Shown here in pieces: positions 25,627 to 35,496 of a stretch of 64,000 nucleotides of DNA. The notes under the pieces were generated by a model. It saw nothing but the letters and a program-made list of their open reading frames with translations, was not told the DNA's origin and searched no databases. Source of the stretch: Asaia platycodi JCM 25414 (GTDB taxonomy: Bacteria > Pseudomonadota > Alphaproteobacteria > Acetobacterales > Acetobacteraceae); the NCBI RefSeq assembly GCF_000614545.1, contig NZ_BAKW01000002.1, positions 62,001 through 126,000 of the forward strand, read 5' to 3'. Positions within the stretch are counted from its first letter, which is position 1; every line of letters starts with the position of its first letter. Made by a program: the position numbers and the translations under genes.

Positions 25627-26059
25627 GCATTTTCCTTGAAAATTTATTTCCTAATATACACTGGGCCAGTGTGGGCATGTGTCTCTTGCCGCCCGTGAGA
25701 GCCGGCGCAGCTTATCGTATTCATATCGGGCGTAGTTGTCGTCGCAACCACCCAGCGTCAGCCCCGATAAATACGGCGGGACCAAGATTTGTATTGCATG
25801 GATCTGACCCGAGCTCAGAGGTCATATATGGCGATGTCGGTGAAGCGACTCAGACACCGAATATCGACGACTTCCAGCTTTTCTCTGCAGACTGCCGCCC
25901 CGGGAAAAGGGTGATCGGAGCAGGTTTCATGCCCCGACCCATGTCTCACCTGTCTTCAGACGCGCCCATAACCGAAGCTGTCGCGTGCCCGAGGGGCTAG
26001 ACGGCAGCAGAGCCAGCCACTTTCACCCATGTCGGGCGTATTCTGATCTGTAGCCGGGG
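25627..26059. other. 433-bp gap after tRNA-His, no supported gene
   Basis: I see no family-like protein, strong ribosome site, or hairpin-plus-T terminator here. An open frame runs through from the tRNA but has no plausible start and no recognisable domain. I looked for a repeat of the tRNA 3' end as a sign of an integrated element and did not find one within the gap. Confidence 0.5.
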
Positions 26060-28991: not shown

Positions 28992-29468
28992 ATGAAGACC
29001 ACACTTTCGTTGAAGCCTGCAGAGGTGACGAAAGGCTGGACCCTGATCGACGCCGAAGGGCTCGTTCTTGGCCGCCTCGCCACCATCATCGCGACCCGCC
29101 TGCGCGGCAAGCACAAGCCCCAGTACACCCCGCATGTCGATTGCGGCGACAATATCGTCGTGATCAACGCCGAGAAGATCGTCCTGACCGGCAACAAGGT
29201 GGGGCAGAAGCTGTTCCATTACCACACGGGTCATCCCGGTGGCATCAAGGAGCGCACCATCACGCAGCGCCTTGAGGGCAAGAACCCCGGCAGCGTGATC
29301 GAGAAGGCTGTCGAGCGTATGATCACGCGCGGCCCGCTCCAGCGCGCCCAGATGAAGCATCTGTACGTTTATGCCGGTGACAAGCACCCGCATGAAGGCC
29401 AGCAGCCGGTGAAGCTGGATGTTGCGTCCATGAACCGCAAGAACACCCTCAACGTGATCGAGGCCTGA
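28992..29468 (+). CDS. rplM: 50S ribosomal protein L13
   Basis: Intact 158-residue L13, binding 23S rRNA early in large-subunit assembly. Family sequence is clear throughout: [37 protein letters not shown]-like [14 protein letters not shown] and [13 protein letters not shown]. It is followed 5 bp later by rpsI, the universal pairing. The 230-bp region upstream holds the likely promoter and the palindrome at 28847. Confidence 0.98.
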
Positions 29469-29473
29469 GAGAT

Positions 29474-29959
29474 ATGTCTGAAACTCAAGAGCGCACGGGT
29501 ACGCTTCAGGACCTCGCCGGTATCGCTCCCGCCACGCAGGCTGGTCCGGTTCACGAAGTCAAGCGCGACGCACAGGGCCGTTCCTATGCAACGGGCCGTC
29601 GTAAGGACGCCACGGCACGTGTCTGGATCAAGCCTGGCAAGGGTGACATCATCGTCAATGGCCGTGCGGTCACGACGTATTTTGCTCGTCCGGTTCTGCG
29701 CATGCTGATCACGCAGCCTTTCCTGCTGACGGATCGCTACAACCAGTTCGACGTGTATTGCACGGTCAAGGGCGGCGGTCTGTCCGGCCAGGCTGGCGCA
29801 GTGCGTCATGGCATTTCGCGCGCCCTGACCCATTACGATCCCGCTCTGCGCGGCATCCTGAAGGTTGCAGGCTTCCTGACGCGTGACAGCCGCGTCGTCG
29901 AGCGCAAGAAGTACGGTCGCGCCAAGGCACGTCGTTCCTTCCAGTTCTCGAAGCGCTGA
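29474..29959 (+). CDS. rpsI: 30S ribosomal protein S9
   Basis: 161-residue S9 with the conserved core [19 protein letters not shown] and the invariant C-terminal tail [16 protein letters not shown], whose last Arg/Lys reaches the ribosomal P site. The first 35 residues form an alphaproteobacterial-type acidic extension. No frame break. It ends the rplM-rpsI operon, followed by a strong terminator. Confidence 0.98.
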
Positions 29960-30035: not shown

Positions 30036-30431
30036 ATTGCGCCGAGTTGTTTTTCTAATCCAAACGCGAATATACGTCATATTCGTTCACATAATTGCGA
30101 TCTGGACCTCTCAGACTCGACAAGGAAGGCTTTCAAAGCCCCGATTTGTAACGGAGATCGTAATGTATCGAATTTCGGTTCAGAGGTATGAACGTAAATT
30201 CGATTGTTTGTATTTTTATCAGGATTATAGGGAAATCATCAATCATCGTTAACCAAAACTAATAATCGACATAGAATCAAGGTCTCGCAAGTTGTCTCGG
30301 ATATAATCTGGGTCTGCGTAAATGCTGAGATCTGGTCGGTTTGAATGCGGAGGTTATGCGACCCCTTTCACACAGTTTCCTGGAGCGGAATATATTTTCC
30401 CTGCTGCGGATAATGGATGAGAAGCCGAGTT
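30036..30431. other. AT-rich leader region before the repeat/Hint gene, with a possible 29-residue ORF
   Basis: About 395 bp without a recognised gene and clearly more AT-rich than its surroundings. It contains a short open frame at 30163-30252 (+) starting MYRISVQRYERK, with GGAG seven bases before its ATG. That frame has no known relatives to my knowledge and may be chance. Otherwise the stretch probably holds the promoter and long 5' leader of the large gene that starts at 30432. Confidence 0.35.
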
Positions 30432-33400
30432 ATGACGACGTCGATCAGTGGTGTCTGGAGCGCAGTTCTTCTGAACGGAAAAACCGTTTACCAAAGCGGC
30501 GCATCCGTCATTGATGGGCCGGTTTCGTTGGCGGGAACAACCCCCCTTCTTTACGTCACAAGTGGCGCCATTGTTGCCGGCCTCATGTCTCCCATGTCGT
30601 CCTGGACGGCTCAGTGGGGAAGCGCGATTATTCAAAGTGGTGGGACGTTGCAGGACTCTGCACTTCAGAGTGTCGTAGCCATAGTCAGTTCAGGGGGGGT
30701 ACTGACAGGTAATACGCTCAATCATACTGGCGACAAGATAGCCGCAGGCGGAACTGTCACCAATAATGTCAAATATAATGGCGGTGACCTCACGGCAGGA
30801 CAGGGCGCGCAAATAGGTAATTTGTCGATCAGTCAGGGAAGCTCCCTTCTGAGTGGCGCGGTGTGGTCGGGTGGCACCGTACAATCGGGCGGTATGGTCA
30901 GCGCGACGAGCGGCAGTCTTGTGAAGGATGCGGTTGTCTCCAGTGGGGGGCAGGTGCAGGTATTCTCAGGCAGTACCGCCCAGCGTGTCCTGACCTCGGG
31001 AACAGGGTTGGGCAATGCCGGCAACGGGATTCAGGGATCTCTGATTCTGAGCACTGGTGGTAGCAGTCTCGATGCAGTAATCTAGGGAGCTACATGGCCG
31101 TGCAGGGCGCCGGTGCGCTCTCACAGAATGCCTACGTCACCTCGAATGGCTGGCAGGATGTCGGTTCGAACAATAATGGTGCTACAGGTGGTGGCACCGC
31201 GTCTTCTACGACCCTGATCAATGGCGGCGCACAATTCGTCAAGGGCGGCGTAGCGGTGAATACGCTTGTCTCGTCGGGAGGCATGCAGGAAGTCGCTGCC
31301 GCAGGTACGGCTTTTGGCGGTACCGTTTTTTCAGGCGGACTGCTTCAGATCGACGGTGGCGGTACTGGCGTCAATAATATCGTTCTTGCTGGCGGTCAGG
31401 CTGATGTTCGAGGGATCGCGCAAGCATCCAACGGCCTGGCATCGGGTCTTGCCGTGCAAAATGGCGGTTCTGCAGTCAGTTTGAGCGGCGGCACGCTCCG
31501 CGATATTTCTTTTCTCAGTGGAGCTAGAGGTATTGTTTCGTCGGGTGGCTCGATCAGTCAATCGGTTATCTCGCTTGGAGGTCAGGCGCGGATATTTTCG
31601 GGTGGAACGGCGACCAGTTTAACCGCAATCGGTAATGGCTGGTGGGGTATGGGCGCAGGTGCTGTTCTGGTTGGGTCGGGCGGCACGGCGTTCAACACGG
31701 TCCTGTCAGGTGCCTATCAGGCGGTGCAGGGGCAGGGCGCCTATACCGAAAATACTGTGGTCACGAATAGTGGCTGGCAGGATGTCGGCCTGAATTCATT
31801 TGACGGCCTGTATGGCGGCGGTGTCGCCTCAGGCTCAACGCTTGTCAGTGGTGGCAAGCAATTTGTCAGCGGTGGCACGGCCTGGACGACGATCATCTCT
31901 GCAGGCGGTACGCAGTCTGTCATGCTGAGAGGCATCGCATCTGGATCCATCATTGCGTCAGGTGGCACGATGGCTGTGCTCTCGGGCGGTACGGCTTTCA
32001 ACGCCAGTGCGGCGAGCGGCGCAATGGCGACTGTCTCGCAGGGTGGCACGGCAGTTGCATCCGGTGGCGTTGCATCCGGGGTCAGCATTCTGAGCGGTGG
32101 ATCTGCCTGAGCATCAGCGGCGGTCAGATTACTGGCTTCACGGTGCAGGGAGGTGGGCAGGCTGTTGTTTCCGGCGGCGGAACGATGAGCGACAGCTTTC
32201 TCTGGCTTGGGGGTCAGGCGCGGATACAATCGGGCGGTACAGCGTCCCAGCTCAGAGTCATCGGTAATGGCTGGTGGGGTATGGGCGCAGGTGCTGTTCT
32301 GGTTGGGTCGGGCGGCACGGCGTTCAACACGGTCCTGTCAGGTGCCTATCAGGCGGTGCAGGGGCAGGGCGCCTATACCGAAAATACTGTGGTCACGAAT
32401 AGTGGCTGGCAGGATGTCGGCCTGAATTCATTTGACGGCCTGTATGGCGGCGGTGTCGCCTCAGGCTCAACGCTTGTCAGTGGTGGCAAGCAATTTGTCA
32501 GCGGTGGCACGGCCGTTACAACGATCATCTCCGCAGGCGGTACGCAAACCGCCATGCTCGGCGGTGTCGCGTCCGGCTCTGTTGTCTCGTCTGCAGGGTT
32601 TATGACTGTCCTTTCGGGCGGCACCGCATATGGCGCCAACGCAGTGAGTGGGGGGCGCGTCCTGATCGCTGGAGGGGGTGTCCTTTCCGGGGGGATAATT
32701 GCCTCTGGGGCGACATTAAGTGGGTCAGCCGGAGCTCTGTGGACAGGAAATATCAAAGTAGGGGTGGCTGTCTCAGGGGGGAGTATCGTCTCACAGGGGA
32801 TCACGGAAATCCTTTCGGGGGGAGTGCACGCGATCTCTTCGTTGCATCGGGAGGCACTCTGCAAATCGATGCCGGGGGTACACTCATTGGGCTGGCAAAC
32901 CTTGCAGCAGGCGGTAACGCGACGTTGGATGGGACTGCTGGAGGAACCGTCAATCTTGGCGGACAGGGGTTCAGTCTCTGACCCTCACGGGAACGACAAG
33001 CCCGAATTCGATTATATCCGGCTTTAACGGGACATCCCCTGGCTCCTCGGATCAGATTGTGCTTCGGGATGTTCCGAAATCGGATATTGTCGGAGTGAAG
33101 TATCCCGATGCCGATCATGTGGAGTTTCGGCTGACCGGAGATCGCTCTCTCGTCCTGAACATCAAAGGCGTAGGAAATTACGGCTTCGATTTGAGTGCAG
33201 GACTGGATAATTCGACTGTTTTCTCGGTCTGCTTTCTGCTTGGTACCATGATCAGGACACCCGATGGAGAGCGTGCTGTCGAGACATTGTCCGCCGGTAA
33301 TCTGGTCAATGTCTATCATCGAGGTCGTGTTGAGACCCAGCGAGTCATCTGGCAGGTCATCGTTGCGTTGAGGAAAATGATAGCGCCACTTATGACGTTA

Positions 33401-34233
33401 CCGACTACCCGGTCAGAATCCAGGCAGGCGCCTTCGGTGTTGGAATGCCTTACAAGGACCTGCTGGTTACTCCGGAGCACTGCATTTTTATTGCAGGCAA
33501 TCTTGTGCCGGTGCGTATGCTCGTCAACGGTCGATCAATACGACACGATGTCACCCTGAGTACCTATAAATATTATCATATAGAAACGGAAACCCATTCG
33601 GTCGTGATGGCGGATGGTCTACTTTGCGAAAGCTATCTGGACTCAGGTAATCGGTACGATCTTACGACAGGCTCTCACGCAGTCGAGTGTACGCATGCCA
33701 GCACGGACAGCGACGATCGCAGAACGATGGCTGCGCCTCTTTGCGTATCCCGATCTTTTGTGGAGCCGATCTGGTCGGACCTGAACCGCAGCGTTGAAGA
33801 GGGCGGGGAGACCGACCGGATGCATGACCAGGACCCCATAGTCCATCTTGCTTCAGAAGATGGGCATGTGATGACCCCAATTCGGGTGGTCGGAGACCGC
33901 TACATATTCCAGATTCCTGGGCATTTCGGGGCTGTCTATCTCTGCTCCCGGTCGTCGCGCCCCAGCGACGCAATTGGCCCTTACATAGATGATCGCCGCA
34001 AGCTTGGCGTTTTGGTCGGCGCCGTGACACTTTACGATCCCTGCTCCAGCGTGGAGATAGATGTACGTGACTTCTTGCACTCGGGGCGAGGCTGGTATGA
34101 TCCAGAGGGGAGTCAGCGTCGCTGGACCAGTGGGAGAGCCTTTCTACCGCTGAGCAAGCTCGAAGGCCTGAGTACGCGGATCCTTGCGGTGCAGATCGTT
34201 GCTGGCGGTCCTTATAGTGCCGATCTGATTTGA
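30432..34233 (+). CDS. Large AIDA-like repeat protein with C-terminal Hint domain (five frame breaks)
   Basis: Reconstructed as 1,268 residues. There is no cleavable signal peptide. Residues about 20-850 are short Gly/Ser/Thr-rich beta-helix repeats of the form VLSGGTA..., like the AIDA-type adhesin stalk. A longer-period unit of about 211 residues occurs three times, marked by GGQ[AV][RQ][IV]F at 30951, 31583 and 32215. The end is a Hint_2 (hedgehog/intein-type) domain: Cys935 in SVCFLLGT, T1015-x-x-H1018 in VTPEHCIF, and GAFGVGMPYKDLL. Hint domains self-cleave or self-ligate, so the stalk may be released or modified. Breaks are near 31083, 32105, 32813, 32967 and 33354, each repaired by one added base, total 1,269 codons. 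Confidence 0.8.
31628..31882 (+). repeat. Exact 255-bp internal repeat, copy 1
   Basis: Every base from ATCGGTAATGG to GGCACGGCC is identical to 32260-32514. It encodes the GNGWWGMGAGAVLVGSGG to KQFVSGGTA part of a 211-residue unit. The flanks diverge immediately on both sides. Confidence 0.95.
32260..32514 (+). repeat. Exact 255-bp internal repeat, copy 2
   Basis: This is the second exact copy of 31628-31882, offset by 632 bp. The offset is one short of 633 (211 codons), which agrees with a single base having been lost between the copies near 32105. Confidence 0.95.
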
Positions 34234-34545
34234 AAGGCACCGGCGTAATATCCAGTAGAGAGGATTGCGCCCGCTTTTTGGCGGCTGAACCGCAGGTCAG
34301 GCCATAGGTAGCTGTTCTGACACTGACCAGGTGTCAGATGTGCAAACGCTCGACTGTATCGGGTGTCGCTGCATTCATTCACGTGACGATATCGATATGA
34401 TGTGTTTCTCGATCAAGCACTGAAAAAACGTAATTCTTAAATATTGCGTACGATAAATTATCATTATTTTCTTTGGGACAGCCTCGTTATGGAGCATGAT
34501 CGCAAGCATGGCCAAATCGGGCCATGCTCGTCGCAGAGAATCGGG
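34234..34545. other. 312-bp gap with one inverted repeat
   Basis: No gene is supported. A perfect inverted repeat CTGACAC-TGACCAG-GTGTCAG lies at 34317-34337 without a T run, so it is more like an operator than a terminator. The second half, toward the LysR gene, is very AT-rich and probably holds its promoter. Confidence 0.45.
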
Positions 34546-35496
34546 ATGAATATCGAGGGTTTTGACATTGAATCGCATAGAGCGATGAAAAATATGAAGT
34601 TAAGATACTTCAGAGTTATTGAAGAGATATTCAATGCACAATCTCTCGTTGGGGCCTCGTCGAGACTGAATCTCACACCGACGGCTGTTTCGAAAGCGTG
34701 TCTGGAAGTCGAAAATATACTGGGTGTGAAGTTGTTTACGCGGTCCAATTCCGGAATGATGCCTACTGCAATATGCCAGTCGATCGTTGAGACCAGTCGC
34801 GTCATCAAATCTGAACTTGAGAAGCTTGCTCATAAAGTAAACGAATTTAAAGAGATAAGAACTGGAACCGTTAATGTCGGCTTCCAGGCTCCTGCTCTTG
34901 AAAAGCAGATCATGCGAGGAATTGCTCAACTCAAGAAGAAAGATGAATCTTTAAAAATCAGAATCGTGTATCGTGAAAGACCCTATCTCCTGGATATGCT
35001 TGAGAGCGGCGATCTTGATTTTGCCTTTGTGGATTTTTTCCAGCTGAATAAAAATAAAAGCCTGAATATGAGTGTCATGCATCGCGACAATTGCTTTGCG
35101 GCCTCACGTGAGGCGTCTACGTCCATACCTGAGTTGCTTTCTGATTGGAGTGAAAACCGCAAGAAGCTTTGGATTTTACCCGTGAAAGGGGTGGCGTTGA
35201 GAGAGCGATTTGAGGCGACGTTATCTGCTCGCGATCTGCAGTTACCAACGAATATAATCGAATATAATTCTTCAGTCGGCCTCGAGGATTTGTTTCTCTA
35301 TACAAATGGATGGGGGATTTTGCCTTTCTATGCCATGCCAGTCGTCAAAAAGTATGTTTCGATAAAAGATCATTATGACTTGCTGGATGAAATGAATTTG
35401 GAGAGTGGCTTGATCTGGATGAAAAATCACACACGTACCCCGCACATTGAGGAAGCGATCAAGATGTTCGCAACCGGAGGTTTGAATGACAATTGA
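34546..35496 (+). CDS. LysR-family transcriptional regulator, AT-rich
   Basis: About 316 residues from ATG 34546, with the HTH in SLVGASSRLNLTPTAVSKA and the following VENILGVKLFTRSNSGMMPT, then an effector-binding domain. ATG 34585 (MKNMKLRYFRV) is closer to the usual LysR start, and ATG 34489 is also in frame, so the start is uncertain. The gene is strikingly richer in A and T, Lys and Asn than its neighbours, indicating horizontal acquisition. It follows the repeat/Hint gene in the same direction and may regulate it. Confidence 0.82.
   Translation: MNIEGFDIESHRAMKNMKLRYFRVIEEIFNAQSLVGASSRLNLTPTAVSKACLEVENILGVKLFTRSNSGMMPTAICQSIVETSRVIKSELEKLAHKVNEFKEIRTGTVNVGFQAPALEKQIMRGIAQLKKKDESLKIRIVYRERPYLLDMLESGDLDFAFVDFFQLNKNKSLNMSVMHRDNCFAASREASTSIPELLSDWSENRKKLWILPVKGVALRERFEATLSARDLQLPTNIIEYNSSVGLEDLFLYTNGWGILPFYAMPVVKKYVSIKDHYDLLDEMNLESGLIWMKNHTRTPHIEEAIKMFATGGLNDN

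Follow-up and report, generated by a model that had tools for sequence, protein, structure and literature searches.

The window analysed here, 64,000 nucleotides of Asaia platycodi JCM 25414 (contig NZ_BAKW01000002.1, positions 62,001 to 126,000 of the forward strand), contains a gene whose product joins a glycine-rich beta-helix stalk of the AIDA type to a Hint domain (Hint_2, PF13403) and a further conserved C-terminal domain (Table 1). We give about even chances to the reading that this protein is a surface or secreted fibre whose stalk is heptosylated in the cytoplasm, and that a Hog-like module replaces the beta-barrel, cuts before Cys935, and frees or joins the stalk. The stalk-Hint protein consists of known domains arranged in such a way that a Hog-like tail takes the place of the autotransporter end, and it belongs to a large family that is little studied and for which a glycosylation partner is plausible.

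Stalk, Hint domain, and heptosyltransferases

Searched singly, open reading frames (ORFs) 2 and 3 of the gene match the NCBIfam model TIGR04415, the repeat named as target of O-heptosylation, at 62.1 and 31.9 bits (cut-off 30). The Pfam model AIDA is passed by ORF 2 (38.7 bits, cut-off 27) and missed by ORF 3 (19.9 bits), and ORF 1 has a weak match to AIDA-I (18.5 bits). The intact ortholog of a congener, G083, matches TIGR04415 at 53.3 bits (cut-off 30). The stalk is a strand-loop-strand passenger as found in the AIDA-I class of type Va autotransporters. The two pieces of Hint_2 reach 82 and 35.6 bits, both above the cut-off of 28.4, and a PHROGs scan of them gave no match. With these profile matches the fusion of a glycine-rich beta-helix stalk to Hint_2, as proposed in a sequence-only reading of the window, proves real.

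Both Hint elements named in that reading, the Cys of SVCFLLGT and the TxxH in VTPEH, are present (codon positions were counted by hand). Relatives were drawn from named genomes, in which 365 stretches encode them; 80 of these stretches, all from genera of Acetobacteraceae, were used, and in the profile for the collection scan a nine-sequence alignment, which was too divergent, was replaced by three rows. In 92 complete proteins (84 from named loci and eight from this genome, after 14 of 106 Hint ORFs had been dropped as incomplete), there is no exception at Cys1, at the Thr and His of TxxH, or at one Glu (92/92), even though the N-terminal parts are very different. Inteins and A-type bacterial intein-like (BIL) domains depend for C-terminal cleavage on a C-terminal His-Asn. 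This pair is absent here: near its place, which was read from the ends of the structural alignment, 87 of the 92 proteins have Glu-Ser and five have Glu-Thr, and an HN dipeptide within 15 residues of that place occurs in only one, downstream of it. C-terminal cleavage or splicing by the Hint domain is thus unlikely, and only the N-terminal half reaction would be expected, as in Hedgehog.

Aah/TibC heptosyltransferases modify AIDA-I and TibA in E. coli and act in the cytoplasm. Three genes of this type (TIGR04414) are found in the Asaia genome, two whole (600 and 556 bits, cut-off 200) and one in pieces, and all three lie within about 6 kb of Hint_2 genes. The C22 copy scores 415 bits to TibC. 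Of the TibC residues named in PMC4358343, D110, K230, R286, and W305 correspond to Asp, Lys, Arg, and Trp in this copy, and T226 corresponds to Ser; the places were counted by hand on the alignment, and the deposited TibC chain itself has Ala at 110. Among the 80 named and 11 own loci, a heptosyltransferase gene is present in five (L009, L018, L035, L037, and L046), each time near a Hint gene. According to predicted ORF ends, 3 bp (Acetobacter farinalis, L046) or 34 bp (Acidomonas methanolica, L037) separate its end from a stalk-Hint gene that follows on the same strand. Each of six stalk proteins from the five loci matches the AIDA-I model, with E 2.3e-5 or better.

A survey of 80 genomes, each of a different genus of Acetobacteraceae, found Hint_2 in 63 genomes (up to 22 matches each) and the heptosyltransferase over cut-off in 20, all of which also have Hint_2 (P 0.004, uncorrected for kinship). 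When the 32 heptosyltransferase places are merged to 27 loci, 12 of them have a Hint_2 gene within 12 kb (1.84 expected) and eight have one within 6 kb (0.94 expected), expectations that assume even placement in the genome and ignore contig ends. The survey overlaps with the named loci: judging by their identical coordinates, its loci in G030 and G037 appear to be the records L046 and L037, so that the two sets are not independent. The partner of the protein, earlier called undescribed, is so insofar as no paper joining stalk, heptosyltransferase, and Hint into one system was found in open-licence PubMed Central, but a likely modifying partner, the Aah/TibC-type heptosyltransferase, is encoded in the genome. 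A 1914-aa strand-loop-strand protein that adjoins a heptosyltransferase gene at L154:3425-9169 has no Hint domain, and no barrel was seen at its end.

The autotransporter barrel (PF03797) has no match in this genome nor in the pieces of the gene, with positive controls in E. coli and Caulobacter. No barrel gene over cut-off lies within 12 kb of any of the 32 heptosyltransferase places, and ten of the 20 heptosyltransferase-carrying genomes lack a PF03797 match altogether. Inspection by eye revealed no Sec-like N-terminus (MTTSISGVWSAV...). By a crude hydrophobicity test, from which GTG and TTG starts were dropped, only one of 67 ATG-start Hint proteins has a hydrophobic N-terminal signal, as compared to 56 of 279 other ATG-start ORFs of at least 300 aa; the 66 family N-termini without such a signal point to Sec-independent export. 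The earlier observation that neither Sec signal nor autotransporter barrel is visible agrees with these results, and the export route is still undescribed as far as the open-licence papers in PubMed Central go.

Alternative explanations

RTX repeats are an architecture typical of type I substrates. A distant Hint_2 protein of Fuscovulum has RTX-like repeats (by eye) ahead of its Hint domain, and in the Asaia genome an HlyD gene (327.7 bits) is accompanied by what looks by eye like an ABC gene; together these make type I secretion the obvious candidate. The same two observations, and the rarity of Sec-like N-termini among Hint proteins, would also suit a simpler scheme in which Hint plainly hydrolyses and only sheds the stalk after export, while the C-terminal domain is a type I signal that is discarded. 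This scheme is possible, if rather unlikely, since type I HlyD occurs in 77 of the 80 genomes (E <= 1e-50) with or without Hint, and G004 (a draft), one of the three genomes without HlyD, has four Hint_2 matches. Moreover, a discarded tail needs no conserved domain, whereas 12 columns of the C-terminal domain are invariant in 71 aligned sequences, unless this domain is itself the signal. With HlyD being near-universal, the presence of type I secretion tests nothing, and it was rejected as a discriminating test.

Outside the Acetobacteraceae, a Cupriavidus plasmid (L119:5491-12894) encodes a Hint protein with a related C-terminal domain; type II secretion (gsp) genes adjoin it and a filamentous haemagglutinin gene lies upstream of it, a hint at another export route for the family there. 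In Sinorhizobium meliloti, a Hint protein (L120:5797-6639) starts, by eye, with a twin-arginine-like leader, which sets it apart from the Acetobacteraceae members seen.

The source genome (3.15 Mb in 35 contigs) belongs to the acetic-acid-bacterium group of Acetobacteraceae, and its completeness is 85.9% versus 88-100% in eight congeners. Among the named loci, the top-scoring DNA match (71% over 4.5 kb) is to L065 of Asaia astilbis. The stalk-Hint gene has no single open frame in this assembly. Syntenic orthologs were sought by best match only, and loci of four of the eight congeners were fetched. Two of these loci, in G086 and G080, are not syntenic; G083 and G087 have intact orthologs of 1268 aa (with Cys at residue 935) and 1271 aa, respectively, between rpsI and the LysR gene. 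The repaired protein of 1,268 residues with Cys at about 935, as the sequence-only reading had it, matches the G083 ortholog. Two frame changes and four stops relative to G083 (six breaks in 3.8 kb) would be in line with a decayed pseudogene that has no present function in this strain. This is unlikely, however, because 13 of the 29 other compared window genes are broken too, the assembly is incomplete, and intact copies are in place in two congeners. With the target included, 14 of 30 window genes have a frame change or stop compared to the G083 genes (32 breaks in 29.6 kb); both ribosomal protein genes are intact. Thus, the stalk-Hint gene is a real gene, probably in an error-rich assembly, and sequence error is a likelier cause of its frame breaks than decay. 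The intact orthologs are under purifying selection, with ratios of nonsynonymous to synonymous substitution (dN/dS) between G083 and G087 of about 0.11 for the stalk, 0.105 for Hint, and 0.25 for the C-terminal domain, which are rough values because dS is saturated. As the same 13 of 29 genes besides the target are frame-broken relative to the congener between positions 25959 and 63998 of the window, other repaired or split genes reported from the window are best regarded as likely sequence errors as well.

Beta-branched residues and Pro before Cys1 slow the cleavage of inteins. In the 92 relatives, Cys1 is preceded by Val (51), Ala (18), Ile (9), Thr (6), Pro (5), or another residue (3). Val or Ala at this place, instead of the Gly of Hedgehog, suggests that the reaction is slow or triggered. 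With Val, Ile, or Pro before Cys1 in 65 of 92 proteins, the Hint domain might even be catalytically silent and act only as a folded module for capping or binding, in a repeat protein that stays inside the cell or sits on its surface. We find this quite unlikely, as Cys1, Thr, and His persist in every complete relative despite the very divergent N-terminal parts, and as the dN/dS of Hint equals that of the stalk. The domain is predicted to have the HINT fold, based on an AlphaFold model of the relative L046 (75 residues before Cys1 to the end; 75 sequences; mean pLDDT 86.7) and not of the broken window copy. The best VIA-align match of this model is the bacterial intein-like domain 2lwy (Z 13.3, 122 residues, root-mean-square deviation (rmsd) 2.2), inteins rank after it, and Hedgehog 1at0 aligns at Z 10.2 over 118 residues (rmsd 2.6). 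A profile search of PDB sequences retrieved 2lwy (E 6e-4), one intein (0.06), and nothing else to E 10.

The C-terminal third of the protein, previously read as Hint_2, does contain Hint_2, but the separate conserved domain of about 190 aa behind it had not been distinguished. Modelled alone from the window's own sequence (71 sequences), this domain is predicted to be mostly beta (mean pLDDT 80.9). Its fold search gave no significant match (best Foldseek E 0.08); the best VIA-align match is Hikeshi (Z 5.9 over 86 residues), with several carbohydrate-binding beta sandwiches lower, and a sugar-binding role would be a guess from these non-significant matches of the model. A polymorphic toxin released by Hint, as may be thought of because Hint domains occur in polymorphic toxins such as MafB, is very improbable and was rejected: the part behind Hint is not variable but one conserved domain with the invariant columns mentioned above, and no neighbour gene of at least 100 aa recurs with Hint genes in most loci.

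Several observations weigh against a heptosylated and Hint-processed fibre. The target gene is broken in this assembly and is not adjoined by a heptosyltransferase gene, the linkage being seen at other stalk-Hint genes, and a Hint_2 gene within 12 kb is lacking at 15 of the 27 heptosyltransferase loci. TIGR04415 is over cut-off in three, below it in two, and absent in one of the six stalk proteins from heptosyltransferase loci. At L154 the only stalk protein found has no Hint domain, and at L158 the nearest stalk protein lacks one and a Hint protein of another kind lies further on; Hint is therefore not needed for the partnership with the heptosyltransferase. Val, Ile, Thr, or Pro before Cys1 means that the Hint reaction may be slow, controlled, or absent. 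The distribution of HlyD irrespective of Hint and the lack of a significant fold match for the C-terminal domain, both described above, belong to the same side.

Table 1. Features at the stalk-Hint locus, in positions of the window.
Feature	Position	Strand	Remarks
rplM and rpsI, fixing the syntenic position	28992..29959	+	identified by eye and plasmid hits
Whole stalk-Hint gene	30432..34233	+	split over several frames in the assembly; start deduced from intact orthologs
ORF 1, N-terminal stalk	30417..31085	+	AIDA-I-like, weak (NF033176 E 2.7e-4)
ORF 2, stalk	31094..32110	+	Pfam AIDA and TIGR04415 repeats
300-nt internal duplication, copy 1	31533..31832	+	89% identical to copy 2
ORF 3, stalk	32143..33027	+	TIGR04415 repeats; Pfam AIDA under cut-off
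300-nt internal duplication, copy 2	32165..32464	+	89% identical to copy 1
ORF 4	33059-33559	+	Hint_2 profile positions 1-45
Pre-Hint stretch	33059..33229	+	resembles, by eye, those of several relatives (e.g. L046, L048, L033)
Hint_2, N-terminal piece	33227..33361	+	profile 1-45; Cys1 codon 33230-33232
Hint_2, C-terminal piece	33355..33642	+	profile 41-145; TPEH at 33469-33480
ORF 5	33445-34233	+	Hint_2 profile positions 70-145
Conserved C-terminal domain	33652..34230	+	without Pfam match; predicted mostly beta
LysR-type regulator, downstream of the target	34444..35496	+	by eye; also adjoins intact orthologs

The Hint family and ligase-polyketide synthase clusters

The Asaia genome contains 15 Hint_2 genes (16 pieces, as the target counts twice). 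Fourteen paralogs that were extracted have Hint in common, and most of them the C-terminal domain too, whereas their N-terminal parts are quite unlike one another; several of them are without part of one end, probably through frame breaks. The stalk-Hint gene is not a lone oddity but one member of a large family in the Acetobacteraceae. In these bacteria, the Hint-C-terminal module is a shared tail behind N-terminal cargoes of many kinds. Plasmid records annotate the relatives mostly as 'Hint domain-containing protein' and in some cases as 'outer membrane protein'. Proteins with Hint and the C-terminal domain are encoded on many Acetobacter and Gluconobacter plasmids (L123:7224-9038 and other records), the smallest of which has 3.9 kb. 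Clustering of the neighbouring ORFs of at least 100 aa at the 80 named and 11 own loci revealed no partner that every Hint gene shares; the most widespread of the groups without Hint, found at 13 loci, comprises ABC ATPases of mixed kind. PMC11999647 lists, for a cellulose over-producer, a Hint gene with a missense change and gives the function as unknown, and no paper on the function of the family was found in open-licence PubMed Central.

Some members are part of larger clusters. On contig C35 of the Asaia genome (about 327-346 kb; L009:1469-19255), an acyl ligase and two heptosyltransferases come first, followed on the opposite strand by two stalk-Hint genes, a second acyl ligase, and a type I polyketide synthase (PKS). 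The PKS and one heptosyltransferase are in pieces, and ligases and PKS were identified by similarity to profile-scanned relatives. Acetobacter sacchari (L042), A. nitrogenifigens (L044), and Gluconobacter frateurii (L050) have Hint, ligase, and PKS genes in one direction with gaps below 130 bp. Among four small genomes, three (G029, G040, and G061) encode large proteins beside a PKS-ligase-heptosyltransferase run, and each of the five large proteins tested has this Hint and C-terminal domain at its end (339-379 bits); in the fourth, G032, the fetched stretch of the cluster contains no Hint gene. By eye, the heptosyltransferase-PKS-Hint cluster of G029 (L173:8098-14761) adjoins the same rplM neighbourhood as the target gene does in the window, but on the opposite side of rplM. 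Two PKS of relatives were scanned and have the fully reducing order KS-AT-DH-ER-KR-ACP with no thioesterase match. Section 16 of PMC8776678 describes a cluster with acyl ligases, a constant O-heptosyltransferase, and hint-domain proteins of Asaia, treats it as a metabolite cluster, and also points out the missing thioesterase. The PKS clusters suggest at most that the stalk may carry a lipid-like adduct.

Proposed mechanism and relation to known systems

In the proposed mechanism, a TibC-type heptosyltransferase would modify the beta-helix stalk in the cytoplasm. The protein would then be exported independently of Sec, with type I secretion as a guess. Cys935 of Hint would attack the preceding peptide bond in an N-S acyl shift, which would leave a thioester at the C-terminus of the stalk, and this thioester would be opened by water or by a nucleophile that the C-terminal domain helps to present. 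By analogy with the Hedgehog region after Hint, this domain may select or position the nucleophile. As a result, the stalk would either be freed or have its new C-terminus fixed to another molecule. In a bolder and improbable version, Hint-C-terminal modules would perform a Hedgehog-like conjugation and move heptosylated, barrel-free stalks onto a lipid-type nucleophile; where a cluster also contains acyl ligases and the fully reducing, thioesterase-less PKS, this nucleophile would derive from the PKS product, thereby anchoring the stalks in the outer membrane.

The AIDA-I/TibA/Ag43 autotransporters share the strand-loop-strand stalk (AIDA, TIGR04415) and the TibC-type heptosyltransferase, which in two relatives is encoded directly upstream of the stalk gene. 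In contrast to them, neither Sec signal nor beta-barrel was seen here, and Hint and the C-terminal domain occupy the place of the barrel. Hedgehog and the nematode Hog proteins likewise combine a variable N-terminal cargo with a Hint domain containing Cys1 and TxxH and with a further domain. According to the model of L046, Hint has the same fold as the Hedgehog-type Hog module, and the absence of a C-terminal His-Asn from that module is matched as well. Hedgehog has Gly before Cys1, however, which is found in none of the 92 relatives, and the C-terminal domain, searched by fold only, showed no detectable relation to the sterol-recognition region. BIL domains are bacterial and include 2lwy, the best fold match of the modelled Hint, but BIL domains and inteins differ from the Hint domains here, which have Glu-Ser or Glu-Thr near the place of His-Asn. 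BIL domains are reported in PMC7664689 to cleave and not to splice. The cluster of the beta-group type-1 PKS in PMC8776678 contains the same acyl ligases, O-heptosyltransferase, and Asaia hint-domain proteins, yet section 16 of that paper draws no link between Hint, stalk, and heptosyltransferase and names no Hint proteins in other genera. The RTX-Hint_2 proteins of Rhodobacterales (Fuscovulum) also carry Hint_2 behind secreted-type repeats, but their repeats are RTX-like, the tail after Hint is short, and the identity of about 31% is confined to the Hint part.

To our knowledge, AIDA-type heptosylated adhesins are known only as autotransporters. If the fibre reading is true, the barrel-free and Hog-tailed version would be a different way to display or release a glycosylated fibre, and a function could be assigned to a family that reaches 15 to 22 Hint_2 matches in certain acetic acid bacteria. 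One could then also test to which target prokaryotic Hog-like domains attach their cargo, and which role the orphan beta-group polyketide synthases may have in these bacteria.

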